In this document: piece after piece, positions 2,465-26,801 of the stretch | Layout: each line of letters opens with the position of its first letter | Numbering within the stretch: position 1 is the stretch's first letter | DNA from: Terriglobia bacterium | GTDB taxonomy: Bacteria > Acidobacteriota > Terriglobia > Terriglobales > Acidobacteriaceae | Length of the DNA: 64,000 bases | Assembly (NCBI GenBank): GCA_020073495.1 | Contig: JAIQFD010000001.1 | Location: 186,001 to 250,000 of the forward strand | Reading direction: 5' to 3' | Position numbers and translations under genes: made by a program | The notes under the pieces: generated by a model | Told to the model about the DNA's origin: nothing | Databases searched by the model: none | What the model saw: the letters and a program-made list of their open reading frames with translations, nothing else

Positions 2465-2490
2465 AACTGCGGTCTCCCCGCGTACTTTCC

Positions 2491-2530
2491 TGATGTACAC
2501 GCATCACCAATTTTCGTGATGCGAGTCACA
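2491..2530. promoter_or_regulatory. Crp/Fnr-type operator upstream of the HTH-less paralogue
   Basis: CGTGA-TGCGAG-TCACA at 2515-2530 is a near-perfect CRP-type dyad with a 6-base spacer, ending 33 bp before the ATG at 2564. A second dyad, TGATG-TACACG-CATCA, lies at 2491-2506, 24 bp upstream centre to centre; reading it as TCACC-type half-site gives 22 bp. The adjacent Crp/Fnr protein (1748-2464) is the natural candidate to bind. Confidence 0.6.
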
Positions 2531-2563
2531 GCTTTCCCCCGCCGCGGAACGTAGATTGGCGGC

Positions 2564-3052
2564 ATGAACCACGGGGGCGACATCCCGGTCAGTTTCTTTA
2601 CCTGCGACGTAGCGCCGCAGCGGCTGTTCACGCATATGGGCGCGGATGCGGCGCGGGATTTCTCCGCCATCCAGAACGTGCAGGAGGTGCCCAAGGGCGC
2701 CCTCCTGTTCAGCGAAGGACAGGCACCGACCGCCATCATCTTGTTGCAGACGGGCGGGGCGCGGCTCTCCGTGTGCTCCAGCCGCGGGGAGAAGCTCACC
2801 CTGCGCATGGCCAAGGCGGGCGAGTTGCTGGGCCTGAGCGCCAATGTCTCGGGCAAACCCCACGAGGTCACCGCGGAAACCACCGTCCCCTCGCAGATCG
2901 TCTTCATCAAGCGCAAGGATTTCGTGCGCTTCCTGAAAGACCATTCCGACGCCTGCCTGCAGGTGGTGCAGATGCTGAGCAACGATGTGCACGCCGCCTA
3001 CGACCGGGTGCGCGCCATCGGCATGGCCCGGGCCCGCCACGTGCGCAACTGA
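2564..3052 (+). CDS. Crp/Fnr-like protein lacking the DNA-binding domain
   Basis: 162 residues that align throughout with the neighbouring 238-residue regulator: PKGALLFSEGQAP, LSVCSS, AGELLGLSANVSGKP, AETTVPSQIVF and the long dimerisation helix. It then stops at RARHVRN exactly where the winged helix should begin. No HTH sequence follows in any frame in the 60 bp before the next gene, so this is a domain loss, not a frameshift. Only one N-terminal Cys remains. It keeps the dimerisation helix, so it could form heterodimers that titrate the full-length regulator, or act as a ligand sink. A CRP-type operator sits 33 bp upstream. Confidence 0.8.
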   Translation: MNHGGDIPVSFFTCDVAPQRLFTHMGADAARDFSAIQNVQEVPKGALLFSEGQAPTAIILLQTGGARLSVCSSRGEKLTLRMAKAGELLGLSANVSGKPHEVTAETTVPSQIVFIKRKDFVRFLKDHSDACLQVVQMLSNDVHAAYDRVRAIGMARARHVRN

Positions 3053-3114
3053 AAACGCCGGAAGCCCGCTCGCGGGCGGGCGTCTCACCGTTCACCCCAG
3101 CCCTCCCCAAGGCC

Positions 3115-3375
3115 ATGATCGAGAAGTGCGCCAATCCGGATTGCGCCCAGCCCTTCCGCTACCTGCGCGAGGGGCGGCTGTACCAGGTGGATCGCGATGC
3201 CGCCGGACACCTGGTGCGAGGACCGTTCCAGATCTCGGAGAGCGGCCTGCCGCACCGCCTGGAGCATTTTTGGCTGTGCGGCAACTGCGCCCAGCGCCTG
3301 ACCCTGGCCATCGATCCGCAGCGCGGCGTCGTTCCCGTGCCGCTGCCGCACCCCCACCGGCGCAAGGCGGCATGA
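3115..3375 (+). CDS. Small zinc-ribbon-like protein
   Basis: 86 residues with two cysteine pairs: Cys5 and Cys10 (EKCANPDCAQPF) and a second C-x2-C (LCGNCAQ) about 50 residues on. This suggests one structural zinc or other metal site. The C-terminus is basic (HPHRRKAA). No membrane segment. It begins 62 bp after the HTH-less Crp-like gene on the same strand and may be co-transcribed. Function not recognised. Confidence 0.6.
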   Translation: MIEKCANPDCAQPFRYLREGRLYQVDRDAAGHLVRGPFQISESGLPHRLEHFWLCGNCAQRLTLAIDPQRGVVPVPLPHPHRRKAA

Positions 3376-9857: not shown

Positions 9858-11375
9858 ATGGTCGAGGACATCAAGCAGCGGGCCCCCGGACTCATCCGCA
9901 ATACTCTCAGTCTCGCCGGCGTGATCGTGGCACTGGTCGCGCTCGCGAACATGATCTTTTTGCTCCTGGTGGACGTCGTCAGCGAGCATCCACGCCCTTA
10001 CCTGGGAATCTTCGCCTACATGATCTTCCCCGGGATCCTGGGATTTGGCGCATTCCTGATCGCCGCCGGCTTGTTCCTGGAGCGCCGCCGCCGTAAGCGC
10101 CTGGCCCCGGGCGAAGAAGTGCACGCCCTGAAGATCGACTTCGGCAATCCTCGCCACCGCAACGCCTTCGTCTTCCTGAGCACGTTTCTTCTGGTCTTTC
10201 TGTTTTTGACCGCGGTGGGCAGCATGCGCGCCTACGAGTTCACCGACTCGGTGCAGTTCTGCGGACAGCTCTGCCACACGGTGATGAAGCCCGAGTTCAC
10301 CGCCTACCTGGCCTCGCCGCACGCGCGGGTGCGCTGCGTGGATTGCCACGTCGGCCCGGGCGCGACCTGGTACGTGAAGTCCAAGATGTCGGGCATGCGG
10401 CAGGTCTATTACACGATGCGCGGGACCTTTCCCCGTCCCATCCCCAGCCCGGTGGAGAACCTGCGCCCGGCGCAACAGACCTGCGAGCAGTGCCACTGGC
10501 CGGCCAAGTTCTACGGCGGGCAGTTCAAGGTCATCAACCACTTCGGCAGCGACGAGAAGAACACGCCGCGCCAGGTGCGCCTGCTGATCAAGACGGGCGG
10601 AGGCAGTCCCACCACGGGCACGGTCAGCGGCATCCACTGGCACATGAACATCGCCAACGAGGTCACCTACGTGGCCACCGACCGGCAGCGGCAGGTGATC
10701 CCCTACATCCGGGTGAAAGACCGCAACGGGCGCATCGAGGAGTACTTCGCGCGCGACGCGCAGCTCAAGCCGGAGGAGCTCGCCAAGAAAGAAGCGCGGC
10801 GCATGGATTGCGTGGACTGCCACAACCGTCCCACGCACATCTACATCCCGCCCGACCGCTCCGTGGACGACCTGCTGACCACGCACAAGGCCGATCCCAC
10901 GCTGCCCTTCTTCAAACAGCAGGCGGTCGCCGCCCTCACCCAGCCCTACAAGACCACGGATGAAGGCGTCACCGGCATCGCCAACGCGCTGACCAACTTC
11001 TACGAGACCAAGTATCCGGACGTGTACAAACAGAAGCAGGCCGCGGTGCAGGACGCGGTCGCGGCGGTGCAGAAGGTCTTCCAGACCAGCTTCTTCCCCG
11101 AGATGAAGCTGGATTGGCGCACCCACCCCAACAACATCGGGCACTTCTATTCCGCGGGCTGCTTCCGCTGCCACGACGGCAACCACGCGACCAAGAGCGG
11201 CAAGGTGCTGAGCAAGGACTGCCGTGCCTGCCACGAGATCATCAGCGAGACCGACGGCTCGGCTCCGGGGGTGGAAACGGCCGTCAACCCGGTGGAGTTC
11301 AAGCATCCCGGCGGCGATCTCGGCGACCTGACCCAGGTCAACTGCGCCGATTGCCACGGCGCGCAAGCGCAGTAA
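9858..11375 (+). CDS. NapC/NirT-like multiheme quinol dehydrogenase (7 hemes)
   Basis: 505 residues. Three hydrophobic segments in the first 120 residues are followed by one CX3CH motif (FCGQLCH) and six CxxCH motifs. The block MKPEFTAYLASPHARVRCVDCHVGPG with later CEQCHWP and CVDCHNRP is typical of the NapC/NirT/NrfH membrane-anchored quinol oxidases, here extended by about 200 periplasmic residues with three further hemes (CFRCH, CRACH, CADCH). It would pass electrons from menaquinol to the periplasmic cytochromes of the cluster. The last 20 codons (heme motif and stop) are repeated twice downstream. An intrinsic terminator follows at 11396. Confidence 0.9.
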   Translation: MVEDIKQRAPGLIRNTLSLAGVIVALVALANMIFLLLVDVVSEHPRPYLGIFAYMIFPGILGFGAFLIAAGLFLERRRRKRLAPGEEVHALKIDFGNPRHRNAFVFLSTFLLVFLFLTAVGSMRAYEFTDSVQFCGQLCHTVMKPEFTAYLASPHARVRCVDCHVGPGATWYVKSKMSGMRQVYYTMRGTFPRPIPSPVENLRPAQQTCEQCHWPAKFYGGQFKVINHFGSDEKNTPRQVRLLIKTGGGSPTTGTVSGIHWHMNIANEVTYVATDRQRQVIPYIRVKDRNGRIEEYFARDAQLKPEELAKKEARRMDCVDCHNRPTHIYIPPDRSVDDLLTTHKADPTLPFFKQQAVAALTQPYKTTDEGVTGIANALTNFYETKYPDVYKQKQAAVQDAVAAVQKVFQTSFFPEMKLDWRTHPNNIGHFYSAGCFRCHDGNHATKSGKVLSKDCRACHEIISETDGSAPGVETAVNPVEFKHPGGDLGDLTQVNCADCHGAQAQ

Positions 11376-11423: not shown

Positions 11424-11781
11424 GTTTGCCTCTGCCCGCGCCGCGGTAGCGGCGACGGGAGTGCAGCCCGCCGCGGAAGCGGCGACGGACGGTCGCAAAG
11501 CCGTCGTCGCTGGCGCGACTTGTGTCGGGAAGGTCCGCGTTCCCGGCACTGCCCCTTCGACTGCGCTCAGGGCAGGCCGTGCCGGGCTGCAAACCCGTCG
11601 TCCCTTGCGGGACTTGCAATCCCCGACGCCGGGCTGAAAGCCCGGCACTACCTCAGGCCTCAGCGGCTAAAGCCGGGGCGTTTTTTCGCGATGAGGGCGG
11701 GGACCTCGGCGACCTGACCCAGGTCAACTGCGCGGATTGCCACGGCGCGCAGGCGCAGTAAGGACCTCCCCGAAACAAGTA

Positions 11782-11809: not shown

Positions 11810-12277
11810 GTTTGCCTCTGCCCGCGCCGCGGTAGCGGCGACGGGAGTGCAGCCCGCCACGAAAGTGGCGGGTATTCGGCCAAAACAGGCTCGAAGCCGC
11901 GGAAGCGGCGACGGACGGTCGCAAAGCCGTCGTCGCTGGCGCGACTTGTGTCGGGAAGGTCCGCGTTCCCGGCACTCTCGTGCCGGGCTGCAAGTCCGTC
12001 GTCCCTTGCGGGACTTGCAATCCCCGACGCCGGGCTGAAAGCCCGGCTCTACCTCCGTCCTGGACAAATGTGTACCGGGAGGAGGTAGAGCTTCAGCGCC
12101 GCGTCACCGCGCCTTTAAGAAAATGTGGCTTTAGCCACCGAGGGATGTCTACCCCGGAGCCTCAGCGGCTGAAGCCGGGGCGTATTTTCGCGACGCGGAC
12201 GGCGATCTCGGCGACATGACCCAGGTCAATTGCGCGGACTGCCACGGAGCGCAGGCGCAGTAAGTGTCAATGACATA

Positions 12278-12505: not shown

Positions 12506-13657
12506 ATGAACCTGCACGATGCGAATCAAAAGGCGGAACAAATACTCGATCAAGAAAGGGTCGAGCCGACTGTCCGGTACGAGATGGCCCCAACCGAAAC
12601 AGTGATACAGGTCTTAGCCACTTTTGCCGGTCCTTTAAAAGAGCGCGGCAAACATCCTCGTACAATCCAGGAGCGCCCGGAACAATTCCAATTCAAGAGC
12701 ACAAATTTCGACCTTCTATGCGCAATACTGGATCAGGTGCCTAGTCAGAATAGACCAGCATTCGTTGCGTCCGTACGTTCGCGAATCTCGGATGCGCGGT
12801 CATATCGCCGCAGATATGTAGACGTGCTGGGGGCAGGATCCTGGAAGCTGTCGTCGTCCGAACTACCGCTTGTTGCGGAATTCCTTGTTCGTCGTGGCGA
12901 CAAGCAAGTGTTTATCCGAGCCCTCAGTGAAGCAGCCCCTGGCCCCGGCCTAACTCTGCTGCTGATGCAACTGGAAGAGATGATTGCTCTCAACTTCACA
13001 TTGTTTACCGACGAGGAGTATCAGCAGCTTCCAACAGCAATCGAGAGTATCAGGACAACTGTCGCAGGCCTGAGTAAGGGACCAAAACCGAGCTCCACTG
13101 TCGAGTCCAACACCCTCTTCCACGTCCGCAAGGAAATCCCTGAGCTGTGTGACTCCATATTGGAAGGATGCCGGAAAGCGAGATATCTGTATGTAATAAG
13201 CTCCTTGTTGCCAGGCATGAATCTGGAGGTAAACCAAGACAAAAGCAGGGTCCGCACCTTCCTGGAGAAGCTAGGCTTCGCGCAATTGCTCATTGAGTCG
13301 CTCGAAGAAGCGGAAAGGTTGTACCGCACGGCCGCCACTCCGTTTGAACTGAAGAGCGGTATGGGACATCTGCGCAGTTTCTTGGAACAGTTGCATTTGC
13401 AAGCGTGCGCATTAGCGCACAAGAAACTCGGGGGGTGTCTACCCTCGACATGGGGAGAGGCGCTGAAGTACCTTCGAGATCAGAACATTCTGACCGTAAA
13501 GGAAGAACAGTTCGCCAGTCAGTTCTACGCACTGATGAGCGACACCAGTGTGCATCCCCTTGTTGCCGAACGTGAGTATGCCCGGTTGATGCGAAACATG
13601 AGCATCGAATACGGTCTGCTACTACTCACTAAGTTGGACAAGTTGGGACTGAATTAG
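12506..13657 (+). CDS. Hypothetical protein in lower-G+C island
   Basis: 383 residues, mostly alpha-helical by composition, with no signal peptide or membrane segments. The C-terminal third (LLIESLEEAERLYRTA ... LHLQACALAHKKLGG ... SVHPLVAEREYARLMRNMSIEYGLL) is a helical bundle with conserved-looking Arg/His positions, somewhat reminiscent of HEPN-type domains. That is only a resemblance. Base composition is visibly more A+T-rich than neighbours, and it is flanked by REP arrays, which suggests acquisition. It faces a convergent gene for a phospholipase-D-like protein. A defence role is possible but unproven. Confidence 0.7.
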   Translation: MNLHDANQKAEQILDQERVEPTVRYEMAPTETVIQVLATFAGPLKERGKHPRTIQERPEQFQFKSTNFDLLCAILDQVPSQNRPAFVASVRSRISDARSYRRRYVDVLGAGSWKLSSSELPLVAEFLVRRGDKQVFIRALSEAAPGPGLTLLLMQLEEMIALNFTLFTDEEYQQLPTAIESIRTTVAGLSKGPKPSSTVESNTLFHVRKEIPELCDSILEGCRKARYLYVISSLLPGMNLEVNQDKSRVRTFLEKLGFAQLLIESLEEAERLYRTAATPFELKSGMGHLRSFLEQLHLQACALAHKKLGGCLPSTWGEALKYLRDQNILTVKEEQFASQFYALMSDTSVHPLVAEREYARLMRNMSIEYGLLLLTKLDKLGLN

Positions 13658-13790: not shown

Positions 13791-14813
13791 TTAGAGAAGA
13801 ATAGCTCCAGGCCAGAGACTGGCTAACTCAGACAGTATCCGGTCTCTGACGGAGTCACTTTTCCGATCAATCACCGTGGCTTTGGCGCCCAAATGGTTGA
13901 TAGAAGATCCAAGCTGATAACACACCGCACCATCCAAGATGATGAAGCGATCGTGAAAATGTGCAGCAACGCGTACTTCCAAGTTGCCTCTTTGTTGACG
14001 GAGCTTGTTATAGGCAGGTTTGAAATTTCCTTTGACGTGCTCCGTAATTACTTGAACGCCGATACTGGGATGGACCGCGGCAATAAGGTCGAGGACCTGT
14101 TCGTCTACATACGGATCAATGACGATGATCGCGGATCGTGCTTGTTGAAATATTCCTTGCAATGTGCGGAATGCAGTGTAGACCTGACCTTTGGAAATGA
14201 ACGCTTCGATTTCGGCATATTCAGCAAATGTTTTACCGTGGATCGCCGAAGCTCCGCGTTCCGTCAGCTTGACCCAATCATCTGGCACAGTGAGGTCCGT
14301 TCCCGTAGACGCAGTCAGCCGCAGCCTTATGAGTTCATCCCATGTCCAGATTAGAGAGTCTTTCTCGTCAGGCGTCAGGTCCACCTTCTGCCAGCGTTCG
14401 AAATCTCCCTGAGCGCCTTTGCCGATCGTGTTGTACTTGTTGGGCGTTCGACGGTTCTTTTGCTCTTCCGAAATGAATCTCAACAACAAGAATTTTAGAG
14501 CTTCCTCACCAAACGAAATTAGCCCAGAAGCTTCTATTGTCTCCAGAATCTTTGCGTCAAGCTTGGCGGTCAGTTCAATCGTGTACTTGCCAGTTGGGGT
14601 GACTGGATTGTCCCTTAGGTCTTCCAGAAGTTCCCGCGAAAGGTACAGATCGGCATTCCTGCCGCTCGGTCCGAGAAGCCGGAGACAATAAAGACTGCGG
14701 TCGGAATCATATCCGGTCTCCGAAATGGAAATTTCGGGGCTGACCGACTTTATCCTTCCATCGACAATGTTGAAGGCCGGTACCTCTAACGGTTCAATTG
14801 CCCTGAAGGCCAT
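13791..14813 (-). CDS. Phospholipase-D-like domain protein
   Basis: 340 residues. The N-terminal ~200 are unrecognised. The C-terminal ~130 form one PLD-like half-domain: AIIVIDPYVDEQVLDLI, then the HKD-variant HDRFIILDG (His287) followed by GSSINHLG. Only one such motif is present, so activity would require dimerisation, as in Nuc-type or BfiI-type enzymes; the Lys of H-x-K is Arg. Possible nuclease or phosphotransferase. It is lower in G+C than the surrounding genome and convergent with the 383-residue unknown gene, suggesting a two-gene accessory island. Confidence 0.75.
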   Translation of the reverse strand: MAFRAIEPLEVPAFNIVDGRIKSVSPEISISETGYDSDRSLYCLRLLGPSGRNADLYLSRELLEDLRDNPVTPTGKYTIELTAKLDAKILETIEASGLISFGEEALKFLLLRFISEEQKNRRTPNKYNTIGKGAQGDFERWQKVDLTPDEKDSLIWTWDELIRLRLTASTGTDLTVPDDWVKLTERGASAIHGKTFAEYAEIEAFISKGQVYTAFRTLQGIFQQARSAIIVIDPYVDEQVLDLIAAVHPSIGVQVITEHVKGNFKPAYNKLRQQRGNLEVRVAAHFHDRFIILDGAVCYQLGSSINHLGAKATVIDRKSDSVRDRILSELASLWPGAILL

Positions 14814-15296
14814 GCCGCCTCCTTACATTTGAGCGGTGCGGGAGGATAAGTGTAGCTCTTTGCCACGGGACAGGGGTGGTAGCGGGATCTTGGTCATTTG
14901 GCCTTCATTAAGGTTCTTCGCGCCCATCGTCGGCGGAGGCGTGGATGGTGAGGCCCCCAGCAGTTTCTGGTTTCTCGTTTCTAGTTTCTAGAACAAGACC
15001 GCCGTAGGTGGCGCGGGTGGAGTGTGCCGCCCCTAAAGGGGCTCAGATCCTTTTAAGAATGCATGTAAACCCCCGCCTAAAGGCGGGGGCCTTCCACCGG
15101 GGCGAGCTCACGCGCATGGTGACCCAGAGCTGCAAAGCGGCGTCGCGGACGCGACGTGTGCCGCCCCTAAAGGGGCTCAGATCCTTTTAAGAACGCATGT
15201 AAACCCCCGCCTGAAGGCGGGGGCTTCCACCGAGGCGAGCTCACGGGCATGGTTACCCAGAGGTGCTACTCGTCGGCTTGGGCGTGGATGGTGAGG
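14814..15296. repeat. REP-like repeat units and nuclease-tail remnants
   Basis: Contains repeat units at 15022-15129 and 15156-15262 (a third is at 15592-15699). Each is about 107 bp with two hairpins, GCCCCTAAAGGGGC and CCCCCGCCTAAAGGCGGGGG, and a constant end GGCGAGCTCACG-GCATGGT-ACCCAGAG. Remnants of the nuclease 3' end (GGCCTCACCATCCACGCC on the minus strand) lie at about 14938-14955 and 15263-15298. No credible gene is present. Confidence 0.8.
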
Positions 15297-15430
15297 CCCC
15301 TTCGGCTGACACCTCAGGGCAGGCTCCTTCGGCTGCAGCTCAGGGCAGGCCCCTTCGGCTTGCACCTCAGGGCAGGCTCCTTCGGCTTGCCGCTCAGGGC
15401 AGGCTCCTTCGGCTGGCAGCTCAGGGCAGG
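15297..15430. repeat. Five tandem 26-27 bp repeats
   Basis: Five units (27, 26, 27, 27 and 27 bp) of the form CTCCTTCGGCT..CA.CTCAGGGCAGG, the variable part being the 3-4 bases after GGCT. No spacers, so it is not a CRISPR array. A related single copy (CCCCTTCGACTGCGCTCAGGGCAGG) occurs near 11551. Confidence 0.85.
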
Positions 15431-15591
15431 CTATGCTGGGGCACCGATGATCAGGTCGATCTGAGCCGCGGCAGCGGCGACGGGTGTTCGTCCAAGCCGC
15501 CGTCGCTGACGCGACTGAGTGATGGGAGGAATCCTTTCCCCTCCCCGGCACGACGTGCCGGGTTGCAAATCCGTCGTCGCTGACGCGACTC

Positions 15592-15735
15592 GTGCCGCCC
15601 CTGAAGGGGCTCGATAAGATTTCGGTTGGGGGCTCCTAAACCCCCGCCTAAAGGCGGGGGCTTCCACCGAGGCGAGCTCACGGGCATGGTTACCCAGAGG
15701 TGCTACTCGTCGGCTTGGGCGTGGATGGTGAGGCC
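15592..15735. repeat. Third REP unit joined to the nuclease gene tail
   Basis: A 107-bp-type REP unit (15592-15699) runs directly into the 3' end of the PD-(D/E)XK gene (15700-15735). The same junction is present 437 bp upstream (15220-15298), nearly identical over about 77 bp. The duplicated segment therefore includes the gene's last ~11 codons. Confidence 0.8.
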
Positions 15736-16189
15736 GTGGTCGCGGGTGTCGTCTTCGGGGTCGCCGGTGATCAGGCTCCAGCGGTTGCGGTACTTCTCGT
15801 AGGGCCCGGGGCGGTCCGGCTGGTGAGGAAAGAAGTAGGGGTAGCCGTGTTGGGGGATGGCGCGAGCGGGCATGACGTACCAGATATCCATGGGCGCGAT
15901 GTAGATGGCAAAGATGTCCACCTCGCGGGCGCGATAGGCGCGGGTGGTGCGGCGGGCGCGGGCGTGATAAGCGCCGCCATGGATGGCGAAACAGGTCTTG
16001 ACCTGGACGCGCACCATCTTTCCTTCGTGCACGGTGACAATGAAATCGAAGGGTTGGTTGTCACCGTTGGGCTTGGCGACGGAGAGTCCGAGGGCGAGGG
16101 CCTTGGCCTGGAAGGCGATCTCGCCCCATTCTCCCTTTTCCTTGGTGTGGGAGAGCGGGGGTGGTTTGGGGGAAGATATCCATTTTCAT
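15703..16189 (-). pseudogene. PD-(D/E)XK endonuclease-like gene with 5' frameshift
   Basis: The main frame encodes WGEIAFQAKALALGLSV, then QPFDFIV and VRVQVKT, the D and Q-x-K of a PD-(D/E)XK nuclease core, and ends HGLTIHAQADE. This frame has no start codon: it runs upstream to Lys-Trp and a TGA. The expected start ATG AAA ATG GAT ATC lies in another frame at 16189, and removing one T near 16175 (GATATCTTCCCC) would join the two into MKMDI-SSPK. So there is a one-base insertion, natural or a sequencing error. Its 3' tail is duplicated nearby several times. Confidence 0.7.
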
Positions 16190-16239
16190 TTTAGGAGAAG
16201 AGTGGGGCAAGGGGATGTGATGGCGGTCACGGGCCTGCT

Positions 16240-16440
16240 CAGCCGTGCCTACGGCACTCGACGATCCCTTCGACGCCGACCCGCCGCTGAAGCGGCGGGC
16301 TACTCTCAATCGCTCCGCCGGGGCTCGGATGGCGGCGCGGCCCGGATATCCAGCGCTAAAGCGCGACCAGGGGAACGGTTTTGGCGGGGCTGAAGCCCCG
16401 CGCTTCCACCGGGCCGGGCTGAAAGGCGGGCACTACCTCA
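16240..16440. repeat. Cluster of REP-like hairpins
   Basis: Several palindromes with CTGAAG or CTAAAG loops: CCCGCCGCTGAAGCGGCGGG, GGGGCTGAAGCCCC and a degenerate GGGCTGAAAGGCGGGCACTACCTCAGG. The last matches the REP type seen at 11628 and 12026. No gene is visible. Confidence 0.7.
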
Positions 16441-16454
16441 GGACTCGGCAGGAT

Positions 16455-17150
16455 TCATCGCAGCAACTCGTCGACGACCGCTTCGACGTGGATCGCAGTC
16501 GTGTCGAGAAACTCAAGGTCGGACTTCCCGGAATCCCGCAACAGTAGTGGCAGTTCCGTCCCCGCCAGGATCATGGCCTCCGTGCCCTCTTCGACTTTCA
16601 TCCGATGCGCGATGCGCAGCAACTCCGCACGGGTCTCCGGCAGGAATGTGCCGACCAGGAGTTCGCCGAGGTACTTCTGGTGAATGAAGTCCTGCTCTGA
16701 CTTGTTGGGTGGCGTGATGGCGATTCCCGCCCGCCGGAACTCCTCGGGATAAAAACTCCCTCGCATGGTGAATCCGGTCCCGAAGAGTCCGACTTTTTTC
16801 AACCCCAGCGCTTTCGCACGGTCACACGTTGCCCGCACGATGCTGAGCAGAGGGATCGCCGACCGCCGCTGAACATCGTCGAAGACGATGTGCGGGGTGT
16901 TGGCGGAAAAGAAGCCAAAGTCGGCGCCGGCGCGCACCAGCTTCTCGACCCCGGAGGCGAGGTAATCCGCGAGCTCGCTGAGCCGCCCGCTGTCCACCAA
17001 CTCGATGCCCTTGGCAAGATCGAGACTATTGATGATGAGGGATGGGTAGCCCCCATCGGGCCGCCGGGCACGATAACCCGAGATGATCAAGCGGTAGTAA
17101 TCGATGGTGGACTCGGGCCCAAGGCCGCCGATCATGCCTGCGGTTTTCAT
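16455..17150 (-). CDS. Aspartate/glutamate racemase-family protein lacking both catalytic cysteines
   Basis: 231 residues with the full two-domain Asp/Glu racemase fold pattern: start MKTAGMIGGLGPESTIDYY, central substrate loops and C-terminal TELPLLL. The two catalytic Cys are replaced: the first motif (family C-N-T) reads SANTPH with Ala83, and the second (family C-T-E) reads AGTELP with Gly197. Without the Cys pair the usual two-base racemisation is not possible, so this is probably a divergent subfamily with another reaction, such as hydrolysis, isomerisation or ligand binding. It is monocistronic, between a nuclease pseudogene and the radical SAM gene. Confidence 0.85.
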   Translation of the reverse strand: MKTAGMIGGLGPESTIDYYRLIISGYRARRPDGGYPSLIINSLDLAKGIELVDSGRLSELADYLASGVEKLVRAGADFGFFSANTPHIVFDDVQRRSAIPLLSIVRATCDRAKALGLKKVGLFGTGFTMRGSFYPEEFRRAGIAITPPNKSEQDFIHQKYLGELLVGTFLPETRAELLRIAHRMKVEEGTEAMILAGTELPLLLRDSGKSDLEFLDTTAIHVEAVVDELLR

Positions 17151-17266
17151 GTCAGGGAACGACCCTCGTCATGGGAGAAGACTCTACACCGGAAGCGGCT
17201 GACGGTTCGAACGGATGTCATTCCTCCGCGGCGGCGTGGATGGTGAGGCCGACTTCGCGGAGCCGC

Positions 17267-24977: not shown

Positions 24978-26801
24978 TCATTCCGTCGCGGTCGCAACGG
25001 GCGTCGCGTTCTTACGGGGTCGCTTGTTCGACTGAAGGACTTTCTTGCGCAGGCGCAGGGACGTGGGCGTGATCTCGACGAACTCGTCGTCGGCGATGAA
25101 CTCGATGGCCTGCTCGAGGTTCAGCTCCTTGTGCGGGACAAGGCGGATGGCCTCGTCGGCGGTGGAAGCGCGCATGTTGGTGAGCTTCTTCTCGCGCACG
25201 CAGTTGACGTCGAGGTCGGCGTCCTTGGCGTTCTCGCCGATGATCATGCCCTCGTAGACCTCGACGCCCGGACCGGCGAACAGCTCGCCGCGCTCCTGGA
25301 GGCCCCACAGCGCATAGGCGGTGGTGGTCCCCGGCCGGTCGGCGACCAGGGCGCCGGTGGGACGGTGCGGAATCTCGCCCAGCCACTCGATGTAGCCGTT
25401 GAACAGTGAATTCATGACCGCGGTACCGCGGGTGTCGGTGAGCAGTTCGCCGCGGATGCCGATCAGGCCGCGGCTGGGGACGTCGAACTCCAGGCGCACA
25501 CGGCCATATCCGTGATTGTGCATCTTGACCAACTGGCCCTTGCGCGAGCCCAGCTTCTCGATGACCACGCCGACGTAGCTCTCGGGCACGTCGATGGTGA
25601 GCTTCTCCACCGGTTCCATGGTTTTGCCGTCGACGTTGCGGGTGACGATCTCCGGCTTGCCGACCATGAGCTCGTAGCCCTCGCGGCGCATGGTCTCGAT
25701 GAGAATGGCGAGCTGGAGTTCACCGCGGCCCATGACCTTGAAGGTGTCCATCGTGCCGGTCTCTTCGACCCGCAGGGAGACGTTGGTCAGCAGCTCCTTT
25801 TCCAGGCGCTCGCGCAGGTTTCGCGAAGTGACGTACTGCCCGTCGCGGCCGGAGAAGGGCGAGGTGTTGATGGTGAACTGCATGGCGATCGTGGGCTCGT
25901 CGATGATGATGCGGGGCAGCGGCTCAGGGGTCTCGGCGCTGGTGATGGTGTCGCCGATGGAGATGCCCTCGACGCCGGCGATGGCCACGATGTCGCCCAG
26001 CTCGGTTTCCGTGATGTCGGTGCGCTTCAGCCCGCGGAAGGAGAACAGCTTGGTGATCTTCGTTTTCTGCACCGAGCCGTCCACCTTGGCGATGCCGACC
26101 TCTTCTCCGGTGCGCAGCGTGCCGTTGAAGACGCGCGCGATGGCCATGCGGCCGAGGTAGTCACTGTAATCGAGGTTGGCAACCAGGATCTGAAGCGGCC
26201 CCTCCGCCGTTCCGCCCGGCAGGGGGATGTTCGCGAGGATGGCGTCGAAGAGCGGTTGCAGGTCCTCGCCCGGCAGGTTCATATCGGGCGAAGTGGTGCC
26301 GGCCTTGGCGTTGGTGTAGAGCACGGGGAAATCGAGCTGGTCTTCCTCGGCGTCGAGATCGATGAACAGGTCGTAGATCTCGTTCAAGACTTCCTGCGAG
26401 CGGGCATCGCTGCGGTCGATCTTGTTGATGACCACGATGGGCGGCAGCTTGGCTTCGAGCGCCTTGCCCAGCACGTAGCGGGTCTGGGGCAGCGGGCCTT
26501 CGCTGGCGTCCACCAGGAGCATGACGCCGTCCACCATCTTCAGGGCGCGTTCCACCTCGCCGCCGAAGTCGCTGTGGCCGGGTGTATCCACGATGTTGAT
26601 CTTGATGTCGTGGTAGAAGATGGCGGTGTTCTTGGCCAGGATGGTGATGCCGCGCTCACGCTCCAATTCGTTGGAGTCCATGACGCGCTCTATGACCTGC
26701 TCGTTGGCGCGGAAGGTGCCGCTCTGGCGCAGCATGGCGTCCACCAAGGTGGTCTTGCCGTGGTCGACGTGCGCGATGATGGCGATGTTGCGGATGCTCA
26801 A
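24978..26801 (-). CDS. typA: Translational GTPase TypA/BipA
   Basis: 607 residues. The N-terminal G domain has AHVDHGKT (G1), RGITI (G2), DTPGH (G3) and NKID (G4), then EF-G-like domains II, III and V and the TypA-specific C-terminal domain. The GTPase binds the 70S ribosome and assists growth and large-subunit assembly in cold and stress. The only available start is TTG at 26801, with an in-frame TAG 24 bases upstream and no clear Shine-Dalgarno. The leader consists of TAGTAGTTGGTAG-type repeats. Confidence 0.95.

Follow-up and report, generated by a model that had tools for sequence, protein, structure and literature searches.

In transformable bacteria, homology-facilitated illegitimate recombination (HFIR) is described as a process in which homology anchors incoming DNA on one side, while a low-homology junction closes the other (PMC3240628, PMC5361080, PMC2884548). 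The primary work as cited there is that of de Vries and Wackernagel, Meier and Wackernagel, and Prudhomme et al. (PMC5361080, PMC2884548), and homology-assisted illegitimate recombination was proposed for small variable segments in E. coli (PMC2884548). In Rhs loci the old C-terminal tips are shunted downstream, with circles proposed as intermediates (Jackson et al. 2009, PMC2935791), and sequential displacement was described for Vibrio type VI effector modules, where an HFIR-like mechanism is proposed and a shifted effector 3' end is mentioned (Kirchberger et al. 2017, PMC5361080). Here we analyse a stretch of 64,000 nucleotides of a Terriglobia bacterium (contig JAIQFD010000001.1, positions 186,001 to 250,000; hereafter the window), in which the 3' end of a PDDEXK_5 nuclease gene occurs at four sites. 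The genome that holds the window is called G000 (3.70 Mb, 8 contigs, C1, C3 and C4 among them), further genomes carry G-numbers, G001 being the same-genus sister of G000, and loci carry L-numbers. We consider it probable, at roughly 60%, that the scattered tails are old gene ends displaced by one-sided, homology-anchored insertion and later reshuffled by unequal recombination. This would resemble HFIR, as those reports present it, in that homology is one-sided and foreign DNA is added beside resident sequence. The setting differs from the known systems, since ordinary genes are concerned, old and new ends are homologous and the cargo between them is unrelated.

The elements of the window locus are the following.
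15703–16152, minus strand: PDDEXK_5 nuclease gene (PF11645; conserved frame, stop at 15703), with its tail GLTIHAQADE at 15703–15735
15564–15735, minus strand: first copy of the nuclease 3' end and downstream DNA, direct-repeat partner of 15131–15298
15131–15298, minus strand: second copy of the nuclease 3' end and downstream DNA, direct-repeat partner of 15564–15735
15299–15432, plus strand: array of about five 27-bp repeats (family D2) between the two 3'-end copies
15266–15298, minus strand: orphan tail 2 (GLTIHAQADE and stop), its 33 nt identical to the gene tail
14908–14955, minus strand: orphan tail 3 (GLTIHASADDGREEP and stop), a GGCGTGGATGGTGAGGCC match with the ending ASADDGREEP
17218–17250, minus strand: orphan tail 4 (GLTIHAAAEE and stop), upstream of a racemase gene and the nuclease gene

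The 18-bp core GGCGTGGATGGTGAGGCC, which encodes GLTIHA on the minus strand, is exact at 14938, 15281, 15718 and 17233. An earlier note on this DNA had placed four tail copies there, and the differing endings that it gave (ASADDGREEP, AQADE, AQADE and AAAEE) read as it had them. With up to three mismatches the window holds five matches (the fifth at 26634, three mismatches) compared to 0.17 expected from shuffled windows. The whole 3.70-Mb genome holds six places at no more than one mismatch, with none for the reversed-pattern control, and the two outside the window (C1:825.8 and 826.4 kb) both lie within remnants of related nuclease genes. The genome-wide search that the note had called for thus finds the tail specific to nuclease genes and their debris, and because the 18-mer at this stringency is confined to them, we reject the alternative that the note had set against its own idea, namely a promoter or a structural repeat with no relation to the end of the gene. 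Matches at two mismatches, present in 17 of 20 genomes, were not counted as evidence, since 42 outside G000 compare with 26 for the reversed pattern. When the nuclease gene was scanned against the window in 18-mers (up to two mismatches), outside copies came only from its last ~40 bases.

The 5' side of orphan tail 2 is fused to a CCTTCGGCT..CTCAGGGCAGGCT repeat, and the orthologous nuclease locus in G001 carries an orphan tail at this same junction. A second, more decayed orphan lies beyond it, and the G001 gene differs from its orphan by 8 synonymous and 0 nonsynonymous changes. Empty sites in relatives, which the note had proposed to look for, were not found for the window locus; G001 also carries the nuclease with orphan tails. 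The repeat unit seen in the note is real, its length being that of a 99-bp direct repeat at 99% identity (15200–15298 and 15637–15735), not 107 bp; it extends to a 174-bp alignment at 86%. The nuclease itself matches the PDDEXK_5 profile with 68 bits (curated cut-off 26.1). Its conserved frame offers the first ATG, GTG or TTG at codon 51 (counted from 0), past the N-terminal conserved block, and hence this copy may be a pseudogene or may use an unusual start.

Extra 3' ends are not a peculiarity of this gene. Orphan ends of a cytochrome gene, ubiD, comM, a 271-codon gene and another nuclease of G000 lie on the same strand downstream of the intact gene, and repeat arrays, hicBA (twice) or a methyltransferase-like gene lie between gene and orphan. 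At the other nuclease (L048) the last ~50 bp plus 68 bp of downstream DNA recur 720 bp further on (119 bp, 91%), and the repeats enclose a hicB-like gene and hicA; searches for this locus in 10 relatives gave only short or weak matches. ubiD (L047; PF01977, PF20696) has three ends in series, its own end being followed by hicBA, a 157-bp copy of the end (94%), repeats, and a 50-bp piece (94%) with a diverged continuation. The HicA profile is over its cut-off at both hicBA loci, the ubiD partner reaches 48.4 bits with HicB_lk_antitox, and the L048 partner only 22 bits with UPF0150, below its cut-off. The same ubiD–hicB junction is present in G001, its contig ending right after, and the fetched stretch of nine other relatives contains one ubiD end. 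For the 271-codon gene, which lacks a Pfam match at E 0.01, the final 87 bp recur together with downstream DNA on the far side of an inserted gene of ~273 codons, whose methyltransferase match stays below cut-off. The 271-codon gene itself is absent from the matches in 10 of 10 relatives; only its cargo was matched, in G001, and no tail was seen in the fetched DNA there.

The cytochrome tails lie within the window, and the earlier note's placing of them at 11–12 kb holds (11.3–12.3 kb).
9858–11375, plus strand: multihaem cytochrome gene (PF03264, PF14537), its 3' end being tail c1 (11310–11375)
11696–11761, plus strand: orphan cytochrome tail c2, with terminator-like and REP-like (repetitive extragenic palindromic) DNA downstream
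12200–12264, plus strand: orphan cytochrome tail c3
Over 20 codons, c2 differs from c1 by 4 synonymous and 0 nonsynonymous changes, and c3 from c1 by 5 and 1.

The position of the native end can be judged best at comM (PF01078, PF13541, PF13335), behind which come first a 73-bp stretch, known as a dispersed repeat from relatives, and next the orphan end IAEAIQDRTLDRTYWV. A single end was found around comM in the fetched stretch of 10 of 10 relatives. DNA shared by G000 and G001 starts 31 bp past the stop of the G001 gene, and in G000 this anchor lies 37 bp after the stop of the orphan and 162 bp after that of the gene. Because DNA shared with the sister genome follows it, the orphan marks the presumptive native end, that is, it stands where the native end should be. 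An orphan comM end also occurs in G014, a member of another genus, on a second contig (L314, G014:C81, 2.4–2.6 kb). It comprises 103 bp, 88% identical to the comM end of G014 itself; the 140 bp before it, which reach to the contig end, are unrelated DNA. The two ends differ by 11 synonymous and 1 nonsynonymous changes over 33 codons, a pair kept outside all pools described below. In a metagenome-assembled genome (MAG) from palsa, the end of groEL (L200; PF00118) and a terminator, recognised by eye, are repeated around a 94-aa antisense open reading frame (ORF), the displaced groEL end being frameshifted. A YCII gene (L226), L214 and L097 have the same layout, the last without an evident gene between the ends.

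How the ends have diverged bears directly on their origin. We computed 13 tail pairs and pooled 11, ubiD t2/t3 and cytochrome c2/c3 being omitted as not independent. The pool holds 58.7 synonymous (Sd) and 37.3 nonsynonymous differences (Nd) over 147.5 and 518.5 sites, corresponding to proportions pS of 0.40 and pN of 0.072 (P 1.4e-16 vs equal rates). With constraint on the gene and neutral evolution of the orphan from its origin, a synonymous share of ~0.36 would be expected; the observed share is 0.61 (P 4.7e-7). With one pair per gene (8 pairs) the ratio of synonymous to nonsynonymous differences is 43:19 (P 1.4e-7), and 35:19 without the G001 nuclease (P 1.5e-5). Since pairs found by protein similarity could be biased, those found by DNA were counted apart: for six such pairs the ratio is 30:10 (P 3.6e-7), and adding ubiD t1/t3 and the two window pairs, which had been omitted at first, brings the set to nine and the ratio to 42:30 (P 7e-5). 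The comM gene and its orphan differ by 8:1. As the differences are mostly synonymous, the comparison suggests that the orphan ends diverged as coding DNA and not as decaying duplicates, and that the copies resemble the ends of once functional alleles that were displaced, more than they resemble duplicates.

One alternative is that the gene end and the REP array behind it were duplicated in tandem, through slippage or unequal crossing-over, and that the extra copies then decayed. Such a duplication would fit the 99-bp repeat at 15281/15718, the cytochrome unit, which is repeated at 386- and 502-bp spacing with similar repeat DNA before c2 and c3, and the lack of a synonymous excess in the window nuclease pairs. 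Elsewhere, however, differences are mainly synonymous instead of random, the non-REP cargo (hicBA, the methyltransferase-like gene) is single in the stretch read and not repeated, and some orphans (L044, L032, L045) are closer to another nuclease than to the gene beside them. We regard tandem duplication as the general explanation as unlikely, if not to be set aside lightly.

Displacement of gene ends by insertion, to us the simplest account, could proceed as follows. Incoming DNA would consist of a related allele of the 3' end of the gene together with downstream cargo, be it a repeat array, hicBA or another gene, and would pair by homology with the resident gene on one side only. The far side would be joined with little or no homology 24–166 bp before the resident stop codon, so that the gene is kept intact with a new end and the old end is shifted downstream as a promoterless stub. 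Serial insertions would leave serial tails, and once two tails exist, unequal homologous recombination could add or homogenise copies, a step that is likely behind the 99%-identical 15281/15718 pair and the triple tails; c2 and c3 of the cytochrome, with their common junctions, would fit such later recombination between tails. The one-sided recombination step, the source of the DNA and the order of events are what we infer. What the sequences show directly is that orphans mostly sit 3' of their gene, on its strand and separated from it by other DNA, that gene and orphan differ mainly at synonymous sites, that at comM the DNA shared with the sister genome comes after the orphan, and that the 13 joints fall within the named distance from the stop, with a median of 51 bp. 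The 12 bases before the orphan share few letters with those before the gene's copy, and no long homology was seen at any of the 13 joints, both judged by eye and without statistics; this is the second joint with no or short homology that is known from HFIR. Gene bodies are continuous with their current end, several repeats run past the stop, and no donor allele was identified. A displaced head would keep promoter and start and be expressed, whereas a displaced tail would be silent, which could account for the rarity of heads and for scars being seen 3' of genes. The earlier note's idea of a process that duplicates gene ends at REP arrays survives insofar as extra 3' ends exist beyond the nuclease; REPs are not required, given the hicBA and methyltransferase-like cargo.

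Not to sample nuclease loci alone, we surveyed the 361 genes of at least 100 aa in C3:1–400 kb and the window, called with a codon model trained on contig 3, together with the other loci of G000 (L029 and L044 omitted as overlapping) and of other genomes. Copies of gene ends were counted if they were intergenic, not dispersed and no more than 6 kb away, at an E limit of 1e-3 in C3 and the window and of 1e-5 in short loci. The strict rule demanded the same strand, a downstream position for 3' copies or an upstream one for 5' copies, and a copy reaching the gene end; it was applied to 3' and 5' ends alone, so that middles were counted only under the loose rules, which admit any strand and any side. 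Under the strict rule 3' and 5' cases numbered 4 and 1 among the 361 genes of C3 and the window, 2 and 0 among 116 genes at other G000 loci, and 7 and 1 among 757 genes of other genomes, in total 13 and 2 of 1234 genes (P 0.007). The loose rules gave, in the same order, 5, 4 and 14 genes with 3' copies (23), 1, 1 and 8 with 5' copies (10), and 1, 0 and 0 with copies of the middle (1); 18 of the 23 loose 3' genes have a downstream copy on the same strand (4/5, 2/4, 12/14). The 271-codon gene and comM are two clear new cases from this survey, and ubiD, the L048 nuclease and groEL in the other genome are likewise clean examples. By inspection, the 5' case of C3 looks like a repeat at the called start, and that of L226 lies beside the same duplicated block as the L226 3' case. 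A self-BLAST of gene ends had given 16 3', 5 middle and 4 5' cases in 146 genes; because many of its 3' matches were REPs reading into the ORF, stricter filters were used later. An early ORF-based control (164 genes; 15 3' and 7 5' cases) was distorted by spurious ORFs and is superseded by the strict survey.

Several observations weigh against displacement by insertion. A synonymous excess is lacking in both nuclease pairs of the window (0.5:2.5 and 2.5:3.5) and in ubiD t1/t3 (9.5:14.5), and the 15281 copy is as similar to the gene end over its 99 bp as expected of plain duplication or conversion; for these window pairs the displacement would be argued by analogy and from the G001 orthologue. 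Tail 4 (17233) lies upstream of the nuclease gene, and in L045 (4041–4139) an orphan C end, most like a nuclease of G026, lies upstream of the nuclease gene and on the other strand. The comM contig of G014 stops 2.4 kb after comM, and both contigs end near the break. In the survey, C3 and the window alone (4 vs 1) are not significant, removal of three probable local repeats (L156, L172, L192) leaves 10 vs 2 (P 0.04), and the loose 3' and 5' totals differ with P 0.035. The strict 5' count is lowered because gene starts are less certain than stops, and the loci outside C3 and the window were sampled around nucleases.

The nuclease family itself is patchy, with 12 of 61 genomes over the PDDEXK_5 cut-off (G000 included) and none in most; in a phylum sample 5 of 297 genomes exceed it (G000 and G007 included). 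G000 has 21 copies, G001 14 and G007 21. The other 20 copies of G000 show 35–51% identity to that of the window over the aligned part, and a GLTIHA-like tail, judged by eye, ends 7 of the 21. The 21 loci (L029–L049) represent a strong lineage-specific expansion within 3.7 Mb. We searched segments of 45 residues from the N terminus, middle and C terminus of 69 proteins against 78 masked loci of six genomes, incomplete or stop-containing proteins being excluded as queries and two spurious L172 rows removed beforehand. At E 1e-4 this gave 2 N-terminal, 0 middle and 9 C-terminal places; one of the N-terminal places (L150) and one of the C-terminal places (L139) belong to frameshifted genes. From 129 further nuclease relatives 80 loci were kept (79 from acidobacterial MAGs, Terriglobia and allied, and 1 from Verrucomicrobia), and after removal of 9 that copy genomes already in use, the remaining 71 independent loci gave 0, 0 and 1 at the same threshold. 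Set beside the first counts, this places the excess of C-terminal stubs, as far as the loci sampled tell, mainly in G000 and G026 and not in the family as a whole. With a single orphan C end in the 71 further loci, a nuclease-specific, family-wide process loses ground.

With so many copies, tandem nuclease paralogues might have decayed, a downstream second nuclease being deleted except for its tail. C ends resembling other nucleases do lie shortly after genes in L044, L032 and L160, and a nuclease remnant in L007 has lost an internal stretch, yet N-terminal stubs at E 1e-4 occur only in L007 and in the frameshifted-gene piece of L150, and the same pattern at comM, ubiD, the cytochrome gene, groEL and the 271-aa gene would stay unexplained. 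Paralogue decay thus appears improbable. L160 (3481–3649, G026) carries two different nuclease C ends in tandem just past a complete nuclease gene, and L007 (C1:824–826 kb) consists of the debris of nuclease pseudogenes, in which a middle segment is repeated and two different tails occur; the 7.4 kb read contain no intact copy.

A small mobile unit that carries tails or targets gene 3' ends, as the earlier note had also considered, for example a REP moved by a Y1 transposase of the REP-associated tyrosine transposase (RAYT) type, could draw on the repeats between tails at the window nuclease, comM, L032 and L090 of G001 and on the Y1_Tnp gene next to one nuclease copy (L030), but is very improbable, since tails and cargo differ between genes, several cargos have no noticeable REP, the junctions, by eye, share no terminal sequence and show no palindromic unit with constant ends at every copy, and the 18-bp tail at up to one mismatch has no copies away from nuclease genes or debris in G000. 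A mobile unit is not needed to explain the tails. In L030 the tail of the Y1_Tnp gene (2473–3132; IS200-like, possibly a RAYT) is itself a repeat unit, since the last 29 bp of the gene and 49 bp of downstream DNA reappear ~0.8 kb upstream (79 bp, 94%).

Integrases insert elements at tRNA genes or gene 3' ends, which the element restores. The likeness lies in the duplication of the target gene's end at both borders of the insert. In the present cases, however, the repeats are specific to each gene, the insert at comM comprises only 73 bp, and no integrase was noticed in the between-tail DNA that was translated.

Among the described systems, Rhs displacement is matched by old 3' ends lying downstream of the intact gene on the same strand in the 18 genes counted above, with window tail 4 and L045 as exceptions. 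The Rhs report describes polymorphic toxins with non-homologous tips and identical core fragments (PMC2935791), whereas here housekeeping or nuclease genes have homologous ends of near-identical peptides (pN 0.072) and synonymous divergence. With the Vibrio type VI modules, as described, our loci share that serial insertions shift older 3' material downstream; there orphan immunity genes are kept and perhaps protective, while the stubs found here have no evident function (PMC5361080). HFIR, in the accounts cited, is known from laboratory assays and inferred at variable loci, while our case for it draws on old scars beside ordinary genes. In the open-licence PMC literature that we searched, no description of displaced ends at housekeeping genes turned up, which is no proof of their absence.

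If our reading is correct, orphan ends are visible scars of gene uptake, and the stubs show the site, the neighbouring gene and the direction in which foreign DNA entered, even without other signs of mobility. One-sided insertions could then be counted genome-wide in nature, the work cited here, in the parts we draw on, dealing with laboratory transformation and with variable or toxin loci. A bolder version, which we think doubtful, would make gene-end displacement a main route of small-gene gain in these Terriglobia, each event leaving a legible scar, with tail-flanked cargo excised as a circle and re-inserted at the corresponding gene of other strains by homologous recombination alone. Tail repeats would then turn cargo into a cassette, and short genes could move without a recombinase of their own; hicBA and one tail of L048 form a 720-bp unit.

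hicBA as general cargo was rejected, as only 2 of 5 hicA loci are flanked by gene-end repeats. Of the three others, L257 has only a one-sided tandem repeat. L254 (C4:580 kb) has a hicA–hicB pair between purL-like and purF-like genes without a flanking gene-end repeat. The genome has 2 PIN genes, at which nothing past a 16-bp match was found.

Three further genes of the window adjoin the tails.
16455–17150, minus strand: Asp/Glu racemase gene (PF01177, 128 bits), between tail 4 and the nuclease
12506–13657 and 13791–14813: two genes without a Pfam match, between the cytochrome tails and nuclease tail 3
The racemase gene has no DNA match in G001 contig 11 between the nuclease and a radical-SAM gene. 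The genes at 13791–14813 and 12506–13657 have a G+C content of 0.50 and 0.52, compared to 0.63 for the window, and because of this difference they were perhaps recently acquired.

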